Shown: positions 13,567 to 46,482 of the stretch, one piece after another | Layout: the number at the start of each line of letters is the position of its first letter | How positions within the stretch are numbered: the stretch's first letter is position 1 | Origin: Ilyobacter polytropus DSM 2926 | Lineage (GTDB): Bacteria > Fusobacteriota > Fusobacteriia > Fusobacteriales > Fusobacteriaceae | Length of the DNA: 64,000 bases | Direction of reading: 5' to 3' | Assembly (NCBI RefSeq): GCF_000165505.1 | Contig: NC_014632.1 | Coordinates: 124,001 to 188,000 of the forward strand | Made by a program: the position numbers and the translations under genes | The notes under the pieces: generated by a model | Database searches by the model: none | What the model was told of the DNA's origin: nothing | What the model saw: the letters and a program-made list of their open reading frames with translations, nothing else

Positions 13567-14913
13567 TTATAAAGCTGACTCTTCATTTATTTCAGATGAA
13601 ACAGTTTCTTCTACTTCATCCTTTGGAAGGACAATGTTTAATAGTATTGCTACCAATGTAGCTACTGCTACCCCTGATCCCTCAAATAACATTTTAAATA
13701 AGTGCGGGAAATTCTGTGATGCACCGGGAACCAAGCTGAATCCCACTCCCAATCCGATGGAAACCGCAAATATTGTAGTATTTCTACCTGCCAAAGGTTC
13801 CTCTGTGATTTGGTTTATTCCGCTTACCACCATCATACTAAACATTAATACGGCAGCCCCACCTAAAACACTTGCAGGCATTACAGCAATTATTGCTCCA
13901 ACTTTTGGGAATAATCCGGTTATAAGTAGAAATACTGCTCCTGTTGCTATTGAAAATCTATTTATTATCTTAGTCATAGTAATTAATCCCACATTTTGAC
14001 CATAAGAAGTGTTTGGCAGTACGTTAAATAGGGCAGCAAAACTACTTCCTAATCCATCTGCTATAACTGCTCCGGAAACTTCTCTATCAGTGGCTTCTCT
14101 CCCAAGTCCCCCTGAAACTATACCACAGGTATTTCCAACGGTTTCAACAGTAGAGATAACAAACATTATCAATATCGATAGTATGGCATCGAAATGAAAC
14201 TCTATCCCGTATTTAAGGGGAATTGGAAATGCAAACCAACTAGCGTTTGCAACAGATGTAAAATTGATTTTACCCATTGGTATAGCTATTAGATATCCGA
14301 CTATAAGAGCTATAAGTACAGAAGACATGCTCGTTATACCTTTGGTAAAGTGCTTTAAAATCAGTATGATAAGAAGTACGGTAGTACCTAAAAGAAGGTT
14401 TGCGGAAGATCCAAAGTCTGGTGCTCCGACTCCACCTGCAAAATATTTCATCCCAGTTGCAACCAATGACAGTCCGATGGAAACAAGTACTATTCCTGTG
14501 ATCAACGGCGGAAAATATTTTCTTAAATGCTTTAGGAAAAATCCCAATATTACTTGGAATATCCCTCCGATCATTGTTGCTCCCAATACACCAGCTAATC
14601 CGTATTTAGAAGCTATGGCCAAACATACAGGCAGAAATCCAAAACTTGTTCCCATTATAATAGGAAGTCTTGCTCCCACAGGACCTATAGGATAGCATTG
14701 AATTAAAGATACAACCCCAGATACCAGCATAGCACTTTGAATCAAAAACGCCTTTTGATCAATTGGAAGTTTTAACATACCAGAGATTATTATTATTGGG
14801 GTTACATTACCCACAAACATAGCAAGCACATGCTGCAGACCTAAAAGGATGGCCGTATTAAGTGGCGGTTTCCCATCCAGTTGATAGATAAAAGAATTCT
14901 TATTATTTTTCAT
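13567..14913 (-). CDS. NCS2 family uracil/xanthine-type permease
   Basis: This 448-residue membrane protein has about 12-14 hydrophobic segments. The NCS2 signature is visible in TSYGQNVGLITMTKI near residue 305, and EFHFDAILSILIMFVISTVETVGNT carries the conserved helix with an acidic residue. Members of this nucleobase-cation symporter family import xanthine, uric acid or uracil. As first gene of the operon that holds YgeX, YgeY, SsnA, hydantoinase and xanthine dehydrogenase, it most likely imports xanthine, urate or a related purine. AGGAGGAG precedes the ATG. Its 5' leader holds the riboswitch-like element at 15061-15197. Confidence 0.9.
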   Translation of the reverse strand: MKNNKNSFIYQLDGKPPLNTAILLGLQHVLAMFVGNVTPIIIISGMLKLPIDQKAFLIQSAMLVSGVVSLIQCYPIGPVGARLPIIMGTSFGFLPVCLAIASKYGLAGVLGATMIGGIFQVILGFFLKHLRKYFPPLITGIVLVSIGLSLVATGMKYFAGGVGAPDFGSSANLLLGTTVLLIILILKHFTKGITSMSSVLIALIVGYLIAIPMGKINFTSVANASWFAFPIPLKYGIEFHFDAILSILIMFVISTVETVGNTCGIVSGGLGREATDREVSGAVIADGLGSSFAALFNVLPNTSYGQNVGLITMTKIINRFSIATGAVFLLITGLFPKVGAIIAVMPASVLGGAAVLMFSMMVVSGINQITEEPLAGRNTTIFAVSIGLGVGFSLVPGASQNFPHLFKMLFEGSGVAVATLVAILLNIVLPKDEVEETVSSEINEESAL

Positions 14914-15060: not shown

Positions 15061-15197
15061 AAAAAAGCCGCCCATAATTCATTCGAATTTACCCCTGTCT
15101 TACGAGGGGATTTTCCAATAAAAGTAGAGCGACTTGGACATTTTTAAGATAGAAAAGAGGGTTACTCCCTTCCAGTAAAAAGGCCATCATTTACTTT
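15061..15197 (-). promoter_or_regulatory. candidate riboswitch with intrinsic terminator, copy 1 (upstream of purine permease operon)
   Basis: In RNA sense, AAAGUA (15197-15192) can pair with UACUUU (15126-15121) as P1. GAUGG (15188-15184) can pair with CCAAGUC (15137-15131, AA bulged) as P2. UUUUU/AAAAA and then GAAGGG/CCCUCUUUUC continue the hairpin, with conserved internal loops between. The strand AAGUCGCUC (15135-15127), which includes the P2 GUC, can instead pair over nine bases with GGGCGGCUU (15073-15065) before six U residues, forming a terminator. Ligand-stabilised P1/P2 would block termination, predicting an ON switch. The same conserved parts recur in copy 2. It does not show the conserved junction and loop sequences of the classical guanine/adenine aptamer. 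Class and ligand are unknown. Confidence 0.68.
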
Positions 15198-15249
15198 AAA
15201 TTATAATTTTTTCATTCATCTTGTATAAATCAGATATATGAATTTGTTG

Positions 15250-15264
15250 ATAATAATTTATTAT
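15250..15264 (-). promoter_or_regulatory. 15-bp palindrome near the predicted transcription start, copy 1
   Basis: ATAATAA-T-TTATTAT on the plus strand is a perfect 7-1-7 inverted repeat. It lies immediately downstream of the predicted -10 box (15272-15277) and is repeated exactly at 24963-24977 in the same relative place. It could be a repressor operator or a 5' hairpin of the leader RNA. Low complexity is the main caveat. Confidence 0.45.
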
Positions 15265-15271
15265 TAGAATA

Positions 15272-15300
15272 AGTTTAACCCTTTATTTTGATTTTTACAA
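15272..15300 (-). promoter_or_regulatory. promoter of the purine permease operon
   Basis: On the minus strand TTGTAA (15300-15295), 17 bases, then TAAACT (15277-15272). The same arrangement with 17-base spacing recurs upstream of the BMP operon. A second possible -10 (TATAAT, 15205-15200) lies closer to the aptamer but would start the RNA inside P1, so I prefer this one. Confidence 0.5.
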
Positions 15301-15481
15301 ATATATTATTTCAATATCGATCATTACCCTAGATTTTTTAAGGGTTTGAATTCTAGACTTAAAGATTTTCAAACTGGTGATATTTTTTTCTTAACTTTAA
15401 TAGTTTATTATTATTTGTGTTAGAAAAGCTTAAAATTAATAAAAAATTATCAAAATTTAAATTTGTATACTTTTGAAAATC

Positions 15482-23553: not shown

Positions 23554-24570
23554 TTACTTTACTATTGCTTCTACTTTTCTTGAACCAGTTTTAATTTCAT
23601 CCATTGCAACATTAATTTTTTCAAGTTCTTCACCTGTGAAAATGTCTTTTAATTCATCGTTGAAAGTGAGATCTAACATTTTATTTTCTAGTGTCATATG
23701 GAATCCTTCTCCACCTTTAACACCTGCTGCTCTTTTTTCAACAAATTGAGAGATTAAACCTTCGAAAATATATAGCTCACACGCTAATATTGAATTTGGA
23801 GCCAAAACAGTTTGATCGATGTTATTTCCAAACCAGTAAATTCCGTCATATTGACTGACAACTTTGATAGCACCAACACTCTGCTGGGAAGTTCCAGTTA
23901 AAATATCCGCCCCGGCATTAACATGAGTTCTAGCAATTTCCCCTGCAGCAACTGTATCACCAAAAGAACCGGTATAAGCGATTCTTACGTCAGCTTCAGG
24001 GTTAACATATTTAACTCCTTGAATGAAACCACTGTTATATTTAATAGATTCCCCTGCAGCAACTGGTCCGACGATTCCTATGATATTTGTTTTTGTTTTC
24101 AATCCCGCAAGCATTCCTAAAAGGAATGACCCTTCATGTGCATCAACATCATAACCAAATACGTTATCAGCTTTAACACCGTAGCCACCATATGCAAAAG
24201 AGACTTCAGGGAAATCAGCTGCAACTTCGCTTATTACTGATTCATACTGTGCACCGTGGGCTATGACTATGTCGTAGTCTTCAGATGCATATTCTCTGAG
24301 TGCCACACCTGCTTCAATAGGATTTCCTAATCTTTCACTGAATTTTAATTCTACTTTATCTTCTCCAAGTTTTTCTTGGACTGCTTTTGCACCTTCATAC
24401 ATAGCCTGGCTCCAAGCCATATCATCAATAGTACTAGGAAGTATCAGTGCTATTTTGATAGCTTCACTGCTGCTTTCTTCGGCTTTCTTACCACAACCAA
24501 AGAAAGTGAATACGCTGACAAACATCAATAACCCCATTATAAATTTTGACAAAAACTTCATCCTTTTCAT
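23554..24570 (-). CDS. BMP family nucleoside-binding lipoprotein
   Basis: The 338-residue protein has an N-terminal lipoprotein signal (hydrophobic LLMFVSVFTFFGC, with the cysteine near residue 26) and a BMP/Med-type periplasmic binding fold. ALILPSTIDDMAWSQAMYEGA and FAYGGYGVKADNVFGYDVDAHEG are characteristic. It should deliver a nucleoside, perhaps guanosine, inosine or xanthosine, to the ABC importer encoded downstream. First gene of its operon. The leader carries the second copy of the riboswitch-like element, linking its expression to the NCS2 permease operon. AAGGGAGGG lies upstream of its ATG. Confidence 0.9.
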   Translation of the reverse strand: MKRMKFLSKFIMGLLMFVSVFTFFGCGKKAEESSSEAIKIALILPSTIDDMAWSQAMYEGAKAVQEKLGEDKVELKFSERLGNPIEAGVALREYASEDYDIVIAHGAQYESVISEVAADFPEVSFAYGGYGVKADNVFGYDVDAHEGSFLLGMLAGLKTKTNIIGIVGPVAAGESIKYNSGFIQGVKYVNPEADVRIAYTGSFGDTVAAGEIARTHVNAGADILTGTSQQSVGAIKVVSQYDGIYWFGNNIDQTVLAPNSILACELYIFEGLISQFVEKRAAGVKGGEGFHMTLENKMLDLTFNDELKDIFTGEELEKINVAMDEIKTGSRKVEAIVK

Positions 24571-24771: not shown

Positions 24772-24909
24772 AAAAAAAAGTCGTCTACTCCATTAGAAAA
24801 TTGACCCTCATTTGATGAAGGAAACTGCTAATAAAAGTAGAGCGACTTGGACATTTTAGGATAAAAAAGAGGGTTGCCCTTTTTCAGTAAAAATACCGTC
24901 ATTTACTTT
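24772..24909 (-). promoter_or_regulatory. candidate riboswitch with intrinsic terminator, copy 2 (upstream of BMP operon)
   Basis: RNA-sense P1 is AAAGUA (24909-24904) with UACUUU (24839-24834). P2 is GACGG (24900-24896) with CCAAGUC (24850-24844, AA bulged). AUUUU/AAAAU and the GGG-CAA-CCC hairpin continue it. The alternative arm AAGUCGCUCUACU (24848-24836) takes up the P1 and P2 3' strands and pairs with AGUAGACGACUU (24789-24778) before about eight U residues. Relative to copy 1, P2 changes C-G to U-G and the terminator 3' arm differs in sequence but stays complementary, which supports real pairing. About 200 bases separate the terminator from the BMP start codon. Confidence 0.68.
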
Positions 24910-24962
24910 AAATTATAAAAATATACATCTGACTAATATAAACCAAATATATAAAATTGCTG

Positions 24963-24977
24963 ATAATAATTTATTAT
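24963..24977 (-). promoter_or_regulatory. 15-bp palindrome near the predicted transcription start, copy 2
   Basis: This is an exact repeat of the 7-1-7 palindrome found at 15250-15264, again directly downstream of the predicted -10 box. Its identity across two otherwise partly diverged leaders suggests a regulatory role, possibly as operator for the regulator encoded at 25214-25855. Confidence 0.45.
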
Positions 24978-24984
24978 TATAATG

Positions 24985-25013
24985 ATTTTAACTCTTTATT
25001 TAAATTATTACAA
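24985..25013 (-). promoter_or_regulatory. promoter of the BMP/nucleoside ABC operon
   Basis: Minus-strand TTGTAA (25013-25008), 17-base spacer, TAAAAT (24990-24985). It aligns base for base in spacing with the promoter of the permease operon at 15272-15300. Confidence 0.5.
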
Positions 25014-25130
25014 ATATATTATTTAAATATAAACTATTACAGTTTTAATAAAGATGTTGGAATAAAAAGCCTGAAATAATTTTGCTTTGTACAAATGGTT
25101 CTTAATAAAAACTTATCAAAATAATTTATA

Positions 25131-25213: not shown

Positions 25214-25855
25214 TTATTCACTTGTATCTTTAATTTTACTTAGGTATCTATAGATACTAGGCTCTGATATATCTAGAAGTTTGGCTATTTTTTGGACAGT
25301 ACCCTTAACTAAGAACACTCCCTTTCTGTTAAAATCCTCTATAAGTTTTAATTTTCTATCTAAACTCATTTCAGGATTCTTATCCTTAAACTCATTTATA
25401 GTGTTATCTATAATATTTGATGCGATAATTTCGATGCTGTCTAAATCTTTATTTTCACTTTTTCCCATCATATCAAAATTTAACAGTGAATCGACTTTTT
25501 CTTTTATTATCTCTAAATCTGAATAATCTGCATTTATTCCAAGTAATCCAATGGTTTTATTGTTTTCATCCTTTATAAAAAAAGTTGAAAATTTAACGGG
25601 TTTTCCGGCTTTAGAAAAGCCATCATAGTTAATTATGTAGTCTTGTTCAAAATCTAATTGGTTATTTGAAATTCTGTCACTTATACTGCTTATGGGTCCC
25701 CAAAAAGAATCACCTATTTTTCTGGTACTGTTGGCTGAAGCTATAATAGAGCCGTCTAAATTTTCTAAGTCATGAAGAATGATTTCAAAATTTTTACCTA
25801 GAACTTTCCCCAAAAACTCTACGATTTGAATATATGGTTTAAGTCTTGTATTCAT
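25214..25855 (-). CDS. YheO/DauR-like transcriptional regulator (PAS-like domain plus HTH)
   Basis: The 213-residue protein has an N-terminal YheO-type PAS-like ligand domain (GKNFEIILHDLENLDGSIIA, later KFSTFFIKDENNKTIGLLGIN) and a C-terminal helix-turn-helix (VQKIAKLLDISEPSIYRYLSKI), the layout of PF08348 with HTH_22. The C-terminal part from NRKGVFLVKGTVQKIA matches the DauR group. Such regulators control catabolism of amino acids or other nitrogen compounds. It has its own terminator and a 16-bp inverted repeat upstream. Its place beside the BMP operon makes it a candidate regulator of the purine island, perhaps through the shared 15-bp palindrome; that is inference. Confidence 0.85.
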   Translation of the reverse strand: MNTRLKPYIQIVEFLGKVLGKNFEIILHDLENLDGSIIASANSTRKIGDSFWGPISSISDRISNNQLDFEQDYIINYDGFSKAGKPVKFSTFFIKDENNKTIGLLGINADYSDLEIIKEKVDSLLNFDMMGKSENKDLDSIEIIASNIIDNTINEFKDKNPEMSLDRKLKLIEDFNRKGVFLVKGTVQKIAKLLDISEPSIYRYLSKIKDTSE

Positions 25856-35630: not shown

Positions 35631-36072
35631 AAATTACTGAATTTATAAGAATATTAGAGTCAAAGGATTTTGTCACGAATGAAAACCTATAAAATTCAAA
35701 AAAATTAACACGAATAAGGATAAAACCTTTTGACCACAGAGGGCACAGAGAAAAAGAGAGAGTTTCACAGAGTGAAAATAAAAATATTTTAATTTTTAAA
35801 CTACTTTCCCCTTTAAAAAATGCCGTTAAGAAATCATCTTGTGAAATCCACTTTCATTGAAATAAGGAGGTTTACCGACTATATTTCAATAGAAAGTTAG
35901 TTCAGAAGTGATTTGACTTAGAAAATAATGAGTGGAACGAATATATTTTCTAGTTCTTGTAAAATTTATTTTTACAAGTTTCATTAGTTTTAATTGGGGT
36001 GCCTTTTCTTTGGTTACTTTCTTTGGGCAAGCAAAGAAAGTAACACAGGTTTTTGGAGAAATTCAATACTTT
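35631..36072 (+). repeat. dispersed 442-bp repeat, copy A
   Basis: This non-coding stretch is nearly identical over most of its length to 46010-46482. Both begin with aaattactgaattta and end with aattcaatactt. Near its right end it has a perfect palindrome, GTTACTTTCTTTG (36013-36025) and CAAAGAAAGTAAC (36032-36044), with a 6-base loop. It also holds the inverted pair ATTGAAATA/TATTTCAAT. I find no transposase and no clear target-site duplication. It fills most of the gap between the barrel gene and the LPS kinase gene. Confidence 0.88.
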
Positions 36073-46009: not shown

Positions 46010-46482
46010 AAATTACTGAATTTACAACAATATTAGAGTCAAAAGATTTTGTCACGAATGAAAACCGATAAAAGGCAAAAAAATTAACACGAATAAAGAT
46101 AAAACCTTTTGGCCACAGAGGACACAGAGAAAAGAAGAGAGTTTCACAGAGTGAAAATAAAAATCTTTTAATTTTCAGACTACTTCCCCCCTTTAAAAAA
46201 TATCGTTAAGAAATCATCTTGTGAAATCCACTTTCATTGAAATAAGGAGGTTTACCGACTATATTTCAATAGAAAGTTAGTTCAGAAGTGATTTGACTTA
46301 GAAAATAATGAGTAAAACGAATATATTTTCTAGTTCTTGTAAATTTTTTTACAAGTTTCATTAATTTTAATTGGGTGCCTTTTCTTTGGTTACTTTTGCC
46401 CTGACCAAAGGGAGGAAATGCCCTTGGGGTACTTTGGGCAAGCAAAGAAAGTAACAGAAGCTTTTGGATAAATTCAATACTT
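46010..46482 (+). repeat. dispersed 473-bp repeat, copy B
   Basis: Same orientation and near-identical sequence to 35631-36072, with scattered substitutions. It differs mainly by an insertion of about 36 bp in the GTTACTTT palindrome, between 46389 and 46433 (containing ccctgaccaaaggg). The insertion itself has palindromic halves resembling the outer palindrome. It has no open frame worth reporting, and lies between sulP and tsaD. Confidence 0.88.

Follow-up and report, generated by a model that had tools for sequence, protein, structure and literature searches.

A multi-copy transcription attenuator before nitrogen and amino-acid operons of Ilyobacter, putatively worked by a DUF3870 antiterminator

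Two operon leaders in a 64,000-nucleotide stretch of Ilyobacter polytropus DNA (the window; contig C1, positions 124001–188000) carry copies of an RNA element that would belong to an undescribed attenuator family of a nitrogen regulon, worked by a DUF3870 antiterminator; to this reading, drawn from sequence comparison, we assign a probability of about 0.6. We know of no account of how nitrogen genes are controlled in the nitrogen fixer Ilyobacter and its ANTAR-less relatives. What emerges is a regulon comprising 18 or more operons, a new and strongly covarying RNA family, and a candidate function for DUF3870.

Results

Leader structure and genomic setting

The window belongs to the Ilyobacter polytropus CuHbu1T genome (PMC3035301), which comprises 3,132,314 bases, with 2,046,464 in chromosome I. 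Both window leaders fold on the minus strand into a long interrupted hairpin (Table 1). For the element alone, the minimum-energy fold of the window copy and three near relatives consists of P1 (AAAGUA/UACUUU), P2 (UGAY-GG/CC-AA-GUCG) and an inner hairpin; this is the stem that the initial annotation had drawn, although the two conserved internal loops described along with it are kept only among the four closest copies. The fold of the 150-nt leader has a z-score of –3.7, with 0/200 shuffled sequences as stable, and the G-C of the P1 stem is kept in 22 of 23 distinct copies. Strand AAGUCGCUC doubles as the 5′ arm of a terminator (AAGUCGCUC/GGGCGGCUU, then U6), and folding of full-length leader 1 prefers this terminator over the interrupted hairpin. 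The second copy, also put forward at the outset, is genuine: its terminator arm is altered yet still paired.

Table 1. Features of the two window leaders (window coordinates)
Feature	Position	Strand	Basis or remark
Putative antiterminator element 1, leader of PbuX permease operon	15119..15199	minus	model R2, 74.2 bits, E 6e-12
P1 5′ strand AAAGUA, element 1	15192..15197	minus	fold
P2a 5′ strand UGAU (partner GUCG), element 1	15186..15189	minus	fold and alignment
P3 hairpin, element 1	15150..15174	minus	pentaloop UAACC at 15160-15164
Shared strand AAGUCGCUCUACUUUUA, element 1	15119..15135	minus	P2a/P1 3′ side and terminator 5′ arm
Terminator 3′ arm GGGCGGCUU and six-U run, leader 1	15061..15073	minus	
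Element 2, leader of BMP-type lipoprotein/ABC operon	24832..24911	minus	model R2, 73.3 bits
P3 hairpin, element 2, pentaloop CAACC	24862..24886	minus	
Shared strand, element 2	24832..24848	minus	
Terminator 3′ arm AGUAGACGACUU and U run, element 2	24772..24789	minus	
NCS2 permease, PbuX subfamily, first gene after leader 1	13567..14913	minus	TIGR03173 above cut-off
BMP/PnrA-like lipoprotein, first gene after leader 2	23554..24570	minus	PF02608
TATAAT immediately 5′ of element 1	15200..15205	minus	possible –10 box
Conserved AT-rich palindrome TAATAATAAATTATTATC, upstream of leader 1	15249..15266	minus	same at 24962-24979

The PbuX operon continues with genes for diaminopropionate ammonia-lyase, a YgeY-type hydrolase, SsnA, a PreA-like dehydrogenase, dihydropyrimidinase and a molybdenum hydroxylase, and the BMP-ABC operon behind leader 2 includes a deaminase. 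Two AT-rich palindromes, the one listed in Table 1 and a second at 15298–15311 and 25011–25024, are identical 5′ of both leaders and nearly identical in a congener. We infer the first to be a promoter or regulator site; the palindromes may be sites of the PAS_6/HTH_22 regulator (25214–25855), adding a second layer of control at transcription initiation. Elsewhere in the window, a long repeat containing TTTGGGCAAGCAAAGAAAGTAACA occurs twice (35631–36071 and 46010–46482), and short matches to it recur in C1 and C2 of Ilyobacter polytropus and in a further Ilyobacter genome (G043).

A covarying RNA family with a common regulon theme

BLAST with the leader returned only the four closest copies, two of them in a congener. 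A covariance model built from these four (R1) matched further copies in three Ilyobacter genomes, and the covariance-model search of Fusobacteriota suggested by the initial annotation, carried out with a model from 24 copies (R2), yielded 46 copies of covarying structure. Ilyobacter polytropus has 18 of these and two congeners have 16 and 11, all at E 2e-4 or better; a single further copy lies in Propionigenium maris. Locus L137 of a Fusobacterium-type genome (E 0.057) was dropped because it has no matching terminator. In a 24-copy alignment, made with MAFFT and our own structure, 54 cells were changed on both sides, compared to 24 ± 4 in shuffled and 7–20 in slid controls; the corresponding figures for 47 copies aligned to the covariance model, an alignment that leans towards the model, were 118, 45 ± 5.5 and 20–43. 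Covariation peaked in the region from P2b through P3 and was modest across P1/P2a. We rejected a multi-copy mobile repeat, given that the copies are located in leaders, diverge strongly in sequence and covary.

At the gathering score, Rfam matched nothing in the window or in 20 relatives, the purine, NMT1/xanthine-I, PRPP and ykkC models included, and in 13 clostridial and Propionigenium loci it matched only c-di-AMP and PyrR elements located elsewhere. Recovery of c-di-AMP, PyrR and tRNA served as positive controls for these scans, and permissive scans around the leader (up to E = 10) added chance matches and a tRNA only. A search of open-access text found no published description of the family. 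Together with the covariation, these negatives uphold the earlier proposal of an undescribed structured leader that falls in no Rfam family.

The genes downstream, some named by eye from translations, share the theme of nitrogen and amino-acid economy. Copies precede nifH-nifI1-nifI2-nifDK, glnB-amtB-glnB and other nif-cluster genes; Liv-type ABC, TRAP, APC and NhaC-type transporters; an NRAMP transporter with D-glutamate cyclase; ornithine cyclodeaminase-like, C-N hydrolase, M20 hydrolase, 5-oxoproline-type and xanthine dehydrogenase-type operons; and an Asp-Al exchanger/methylmalonyl-CoA mutase operon. The initial annotation had identified the element by its control of the purine operon, as a riboswitch for a ligand such as xanthine, urate or guanine, and the genes behind both window copies are indeed purine-related (the permease/catabolic operon for one, the BMP-ABC operon and its deaminase for the other). 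However, at least 16 of the at least 18 copies in this one genome lie beyond the window pair, before nifH, amtB-PII, Liv, TRAP, APC, NhaC-type and other genes, and the relevant Rfam families are unmatched; rejected by these remaining copies, a purine-specific riboswitch is in our view very improbable. Tandem attenuators also occur (L130, 4804–5083; L272; L217, 1146–1336): two full copies stand 5′ of an APC transporter in Ilyobacter, a DUF3870 gene of Clostridia is followed by two attenuators, and an NhaC-type operon is preceded by a partial copy.

A strand shared between two exclusive structures

The either/or layout first suggested for leader 1, in which the 3′ strand of the hairpin is the 5′ arm of the terminator, recurs throughout the family. 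In the lowest-energy fold of the full leader, 11–17 bases of the shared strand lie in the terminator in 46/46 accepted copies, and the terminator lies outside the covariance model. Across 20 groups, each shared strand pairs better with its own terminator arm (–16.9 kcal/mol) than with swapped arms (–12.9 ± 0.6 kcal/mol; 0/20000 permutations); for the 5′ P1/P2a strand, an equivalent swap gave no significant result. Where the AAGUCG motif varies, to AAUCCG (L063), AAGCCAGA (L064), AAGUUGAU (L072) or AAGUCAU (L120), the terminator arm has changed in each case, and in L063 and L064 the P2a 5′ strand has changed as well. The shared strand is found in mutually exclusive antiterminator and terminator structures, and action by transcription attenuation is strongly supported by these comparisons. 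Folding also agrees with the earlier expectation of a default OFF state that would require an ON signal.

Attenuation could also be coupled to translation of a leader peptide, and UAAAUGGC does occur in many copies with a possible AUG. This AUG is nevertheless not conserved (UAAGAGGC in L124, UAAAAGGC in L128, UAAAGGGC in L134), and neither a common peptide nor a common stop position is apparent; contradicted in this way, the leader-peptide model retains next to no probability.

Linkage to DUF3870 in Fusobacteriota

A DUF3870 (PF12986) gene lies directly 5′ of the Asp-Al exchanger copy in Ilyobacter and Propionigenium, and one of the three DUF3870 genes in Ilyobacter genome G000 stands immediately before copy L073. 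Of 98 Fusobacteriota genomes, 18 encode the domain. Each of the 18 has a type I or type II attenuator, versus 1/80 of the genomes lacking the domain, a comparison to which we attach no probability because type II was defined after inspecting DUF3870 neighbourhoods and the genomes are related rather than independent. Type II, which follows DUF3870 in Fusobacterium-type genomes, reads ACACUU...AAGGUCUAAAAUU with a stem that varies but remains paired; a genome-wide scan for this pattern returned eight DUF3870 genomes, G052 and one spurious match. In G052 (L213), where no DUF3870 gene was detected, a type II attenuator persists upstream of a disrupted permease, and the system may be decaying there. 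Scanning for the terminator signature of type I returned Ilyobacter, a few unrelated repeats and genus g14, whose members consistently carry it about 40 nt 5′ of the DUF3870 domain (in G057 by one mismatch). Within the Ilyobacter polytropus genome, only 1/18 attenuators is adjacent to DUF3870. At L191, L194 and L195, DUF3870 genes (the second Ilyobacter one) are followed by a strong simple terminator whose arm, GGUCGGUUUACUCUC, resembles the shared strand of the family; no antiterminator was found before these terminators.

Linkage to DUF3870 in Clostridia

A combined set of 56 distinct DUF3870 genes from Clostridia and Fusobacteriota includes 22 with an NNNCC pentaloop hairpin of at least 7 pairs within 300 nt downstream, where 0.6 were expected (shuffle maximum 2) and 1 was found upstream; the 22 include L191, which is AT-rich and probably spurious, and some near-duplicates. 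The loop is that of both window copies, with the UAACC of element 1 falling in the class seen 3′ of clostridial DUF3870 genes, and the window copies likewise combine an NNNCC P3 hairpin with a switching terminator. In a set of 22 such hairpins, a strand switches between an upstream helix and a terminator at 22/22, and does so by at least 7 bases in 21/22, compared to 15/77 control hairpins. R2, which was trained only on Ilyobacter, scored below E = 3 across 292 kb of relatives solely at L145, L163, L159 and L148, all adjoining DUF3870 genes; the three weak matches in clostridial loci (E 1–2.7) lie within about 200 nt downstream of such genes. A third model (R3), built from clostridial leaders before the Asp-Al exchanger, retrieved its own members, one per genome, and weak matches only. 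A pair of attenuators is frequent in clostridial operons: one precedes the Asp-Al exchanger, and the other lies between DUF3870 and a CoA-transferase gene (L148, L154–L159, L161, L162 and L173).

This linkage bears on whether a metabolite could act on the RNA directly. A true riboswitch, in which a nitrogen-status metabolite (e.g. 2-oxoglutarate, glutamine or ammonium) stabilizes the hairpin and DUF3870 is merely a gene of the same regulon, would suit an element that is present in many copies, covaries strongly, has an either/or terminator and serves a single regulon theme, in a genome where no known antiterminator protein domain (ANTAR, CAT_RBD) was found. Yet none of the internal unpaired columns is conserved in at least 18 of 20 group representatives (the best reaches 17), which argues against a metabolite aptamer and differs from the conserved junction of NMT1/xanthine-I (PMC7373994); moreover, the family tracks DUF3870 in two phyla, both up- and downstream of attenuators. 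The riboswitch class originally assigned is thus doubtful, and we consider a nitrogen-metabolite aptamer possible though unlikely.

The DUF3870 protein

The predicted DUF3870 fold has three strands and three helices (pLDDT 88) and weakly resembles IscU and enolase N-terminal domains (best Foldseek E 0.007); the fold search matched no known RNA-binding domain. Its pI ranges from 5.2 to 9.5, and the only paper found on DUF3870 in open-access text concerns a neighbouring domain. The protein could instead be a regulated metabolic one. Depending on the lineage, however, its gene is found either 5′ or 3′ of attenuators, an arrangement that suits a regulator better than an enzyme that is itself only a target of regulation. 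That DUF3870 lacks a known RNA-binding fold, and that the shared strand is conserved beyond the needs of pairing alone, would also suit another RNA-binding regulator or a small RNA reading the nearly invariant strand UUACUUUC; but no such factor is known, and the 18/18 co-occurrence with DUF3870 would then have to be due to accident or common regulation, which makes this explanation rather improbable.

Discussion

The element is probably a general, protein-dependent attenuator of the nitrogen regulon, as judged from sequence, and the purine-riboswitch reading was probably too narrow and wrong in kind. We propose that the nascent RNA would first form the long interrupted P1-P2-P3 hairpin, with a 3′ strand that alternatively serves as 5′ arm of an intrinsic terminator. 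Unaided, folding predicts that the terminator wins and the operon stays off, whereas stabilization of the hairpin by some factor would allow RNA polymerase to read through, presumably under nitrogen need. The signal would be general nitrogen or amino-acid status rather than purine, because the operons preceded by the same element in this genome, 18 or more, cover nitrogen, amino-acid and purine genes alike. Genome linkage points to a DUF3870-family protein as the most likely stabilizer, and hence as the candidate RNA-binding antiterminator of the element, which would recognize the P3 pentaloop hairpin and the P1 strand. Against pentaloop recognition, the loop is not of the CC type in 19/47 aligned copies. 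Ilyobacter P3 loops fall into two classes (alignment A7, columns 38–42), NNNCC (28/47) and UYYAG-like, and the three DUF3870 paralogues might differ in which class they match. Since each attenuator hints at the purpose of its operon, many transporters without known substrate can be placed in nitrogen nutrition.

Comparison with known systems

Several riboswitches share features with the element. NMT1/xanthine-I, reported only in Proteobacteria, has an aptamer with a conserved junction and mostly acts on the ribosome binding site (PMC7373994); like it, the Ilyobacter element is a hairpin with internal bulges 5′ of purine-related genes, but one that has no Rfam match and no conserved junction nucleotides and uses a terminator. 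Guanine/adenine and PRPP/ykkC riboswitches are likewise found in purine-gene leaders of anaerobes, but the Ilyobacter element lacks a three-way junction and these classes are absent among its Rfam matches up to E = 10. Across 20 representatives it shows no conserved unpaired pocket such as riboswitches generally have for their ligands.

Protein-dependent antitermination offers closer parallels. ANTAR proteins (NasR, EutV and AmiR) antiterminate nitrogen genes, including PII, ammonium-transporter and nitrogenase genes (PMC3369931), and share with the present family the antiterminator/terminator choice in nitrogen-gene leaders and multi-copy regulons. Their RNA target comprises two hexaloop (A1, G4) hairpins, in contrast to the single long interrupted hairpin of Ilyobacter; both loops occur in only 1/47 copies, and single ones conflict with the covarying fold. 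The ANTAR domain (PF03861), present in 42/98 Fusobacteriota genomes, has 0 matches in the three Ilyobacter genomes (G000, G042 and G043). With the protein absent and the RNA structure different, an ANTAR target was rejected. In the bgl system, the regulator gene and then an attenuator lie ahead of the structural gene, an order that the DUF3870 loci share. The RAT element bound in BglG/LicT systems is ~30 nt, compared to about 80 nt for the Ilyobacter element, and CAT_RBD (PF03123) gave 0 matches in 7 genomes while control genomes were positive; with this domain absent and the structure different, a BglG/LicT target was also rejected.

The broader possibility, for which we see about even odds, is that DUF3870 proteins are unrecognized RNA-binding antiterminators that, with the new leader RNA, would provide ANTAR-independent control of nitrogen and amino-acid genes across Fusobacteriota and Clostridia, extending in Ilyobacter to ~18 operons including nitrogenase. 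Such a system would parallel BglG with its RNA target, as well as ANTAR with its RNA, while being unrelated to either.
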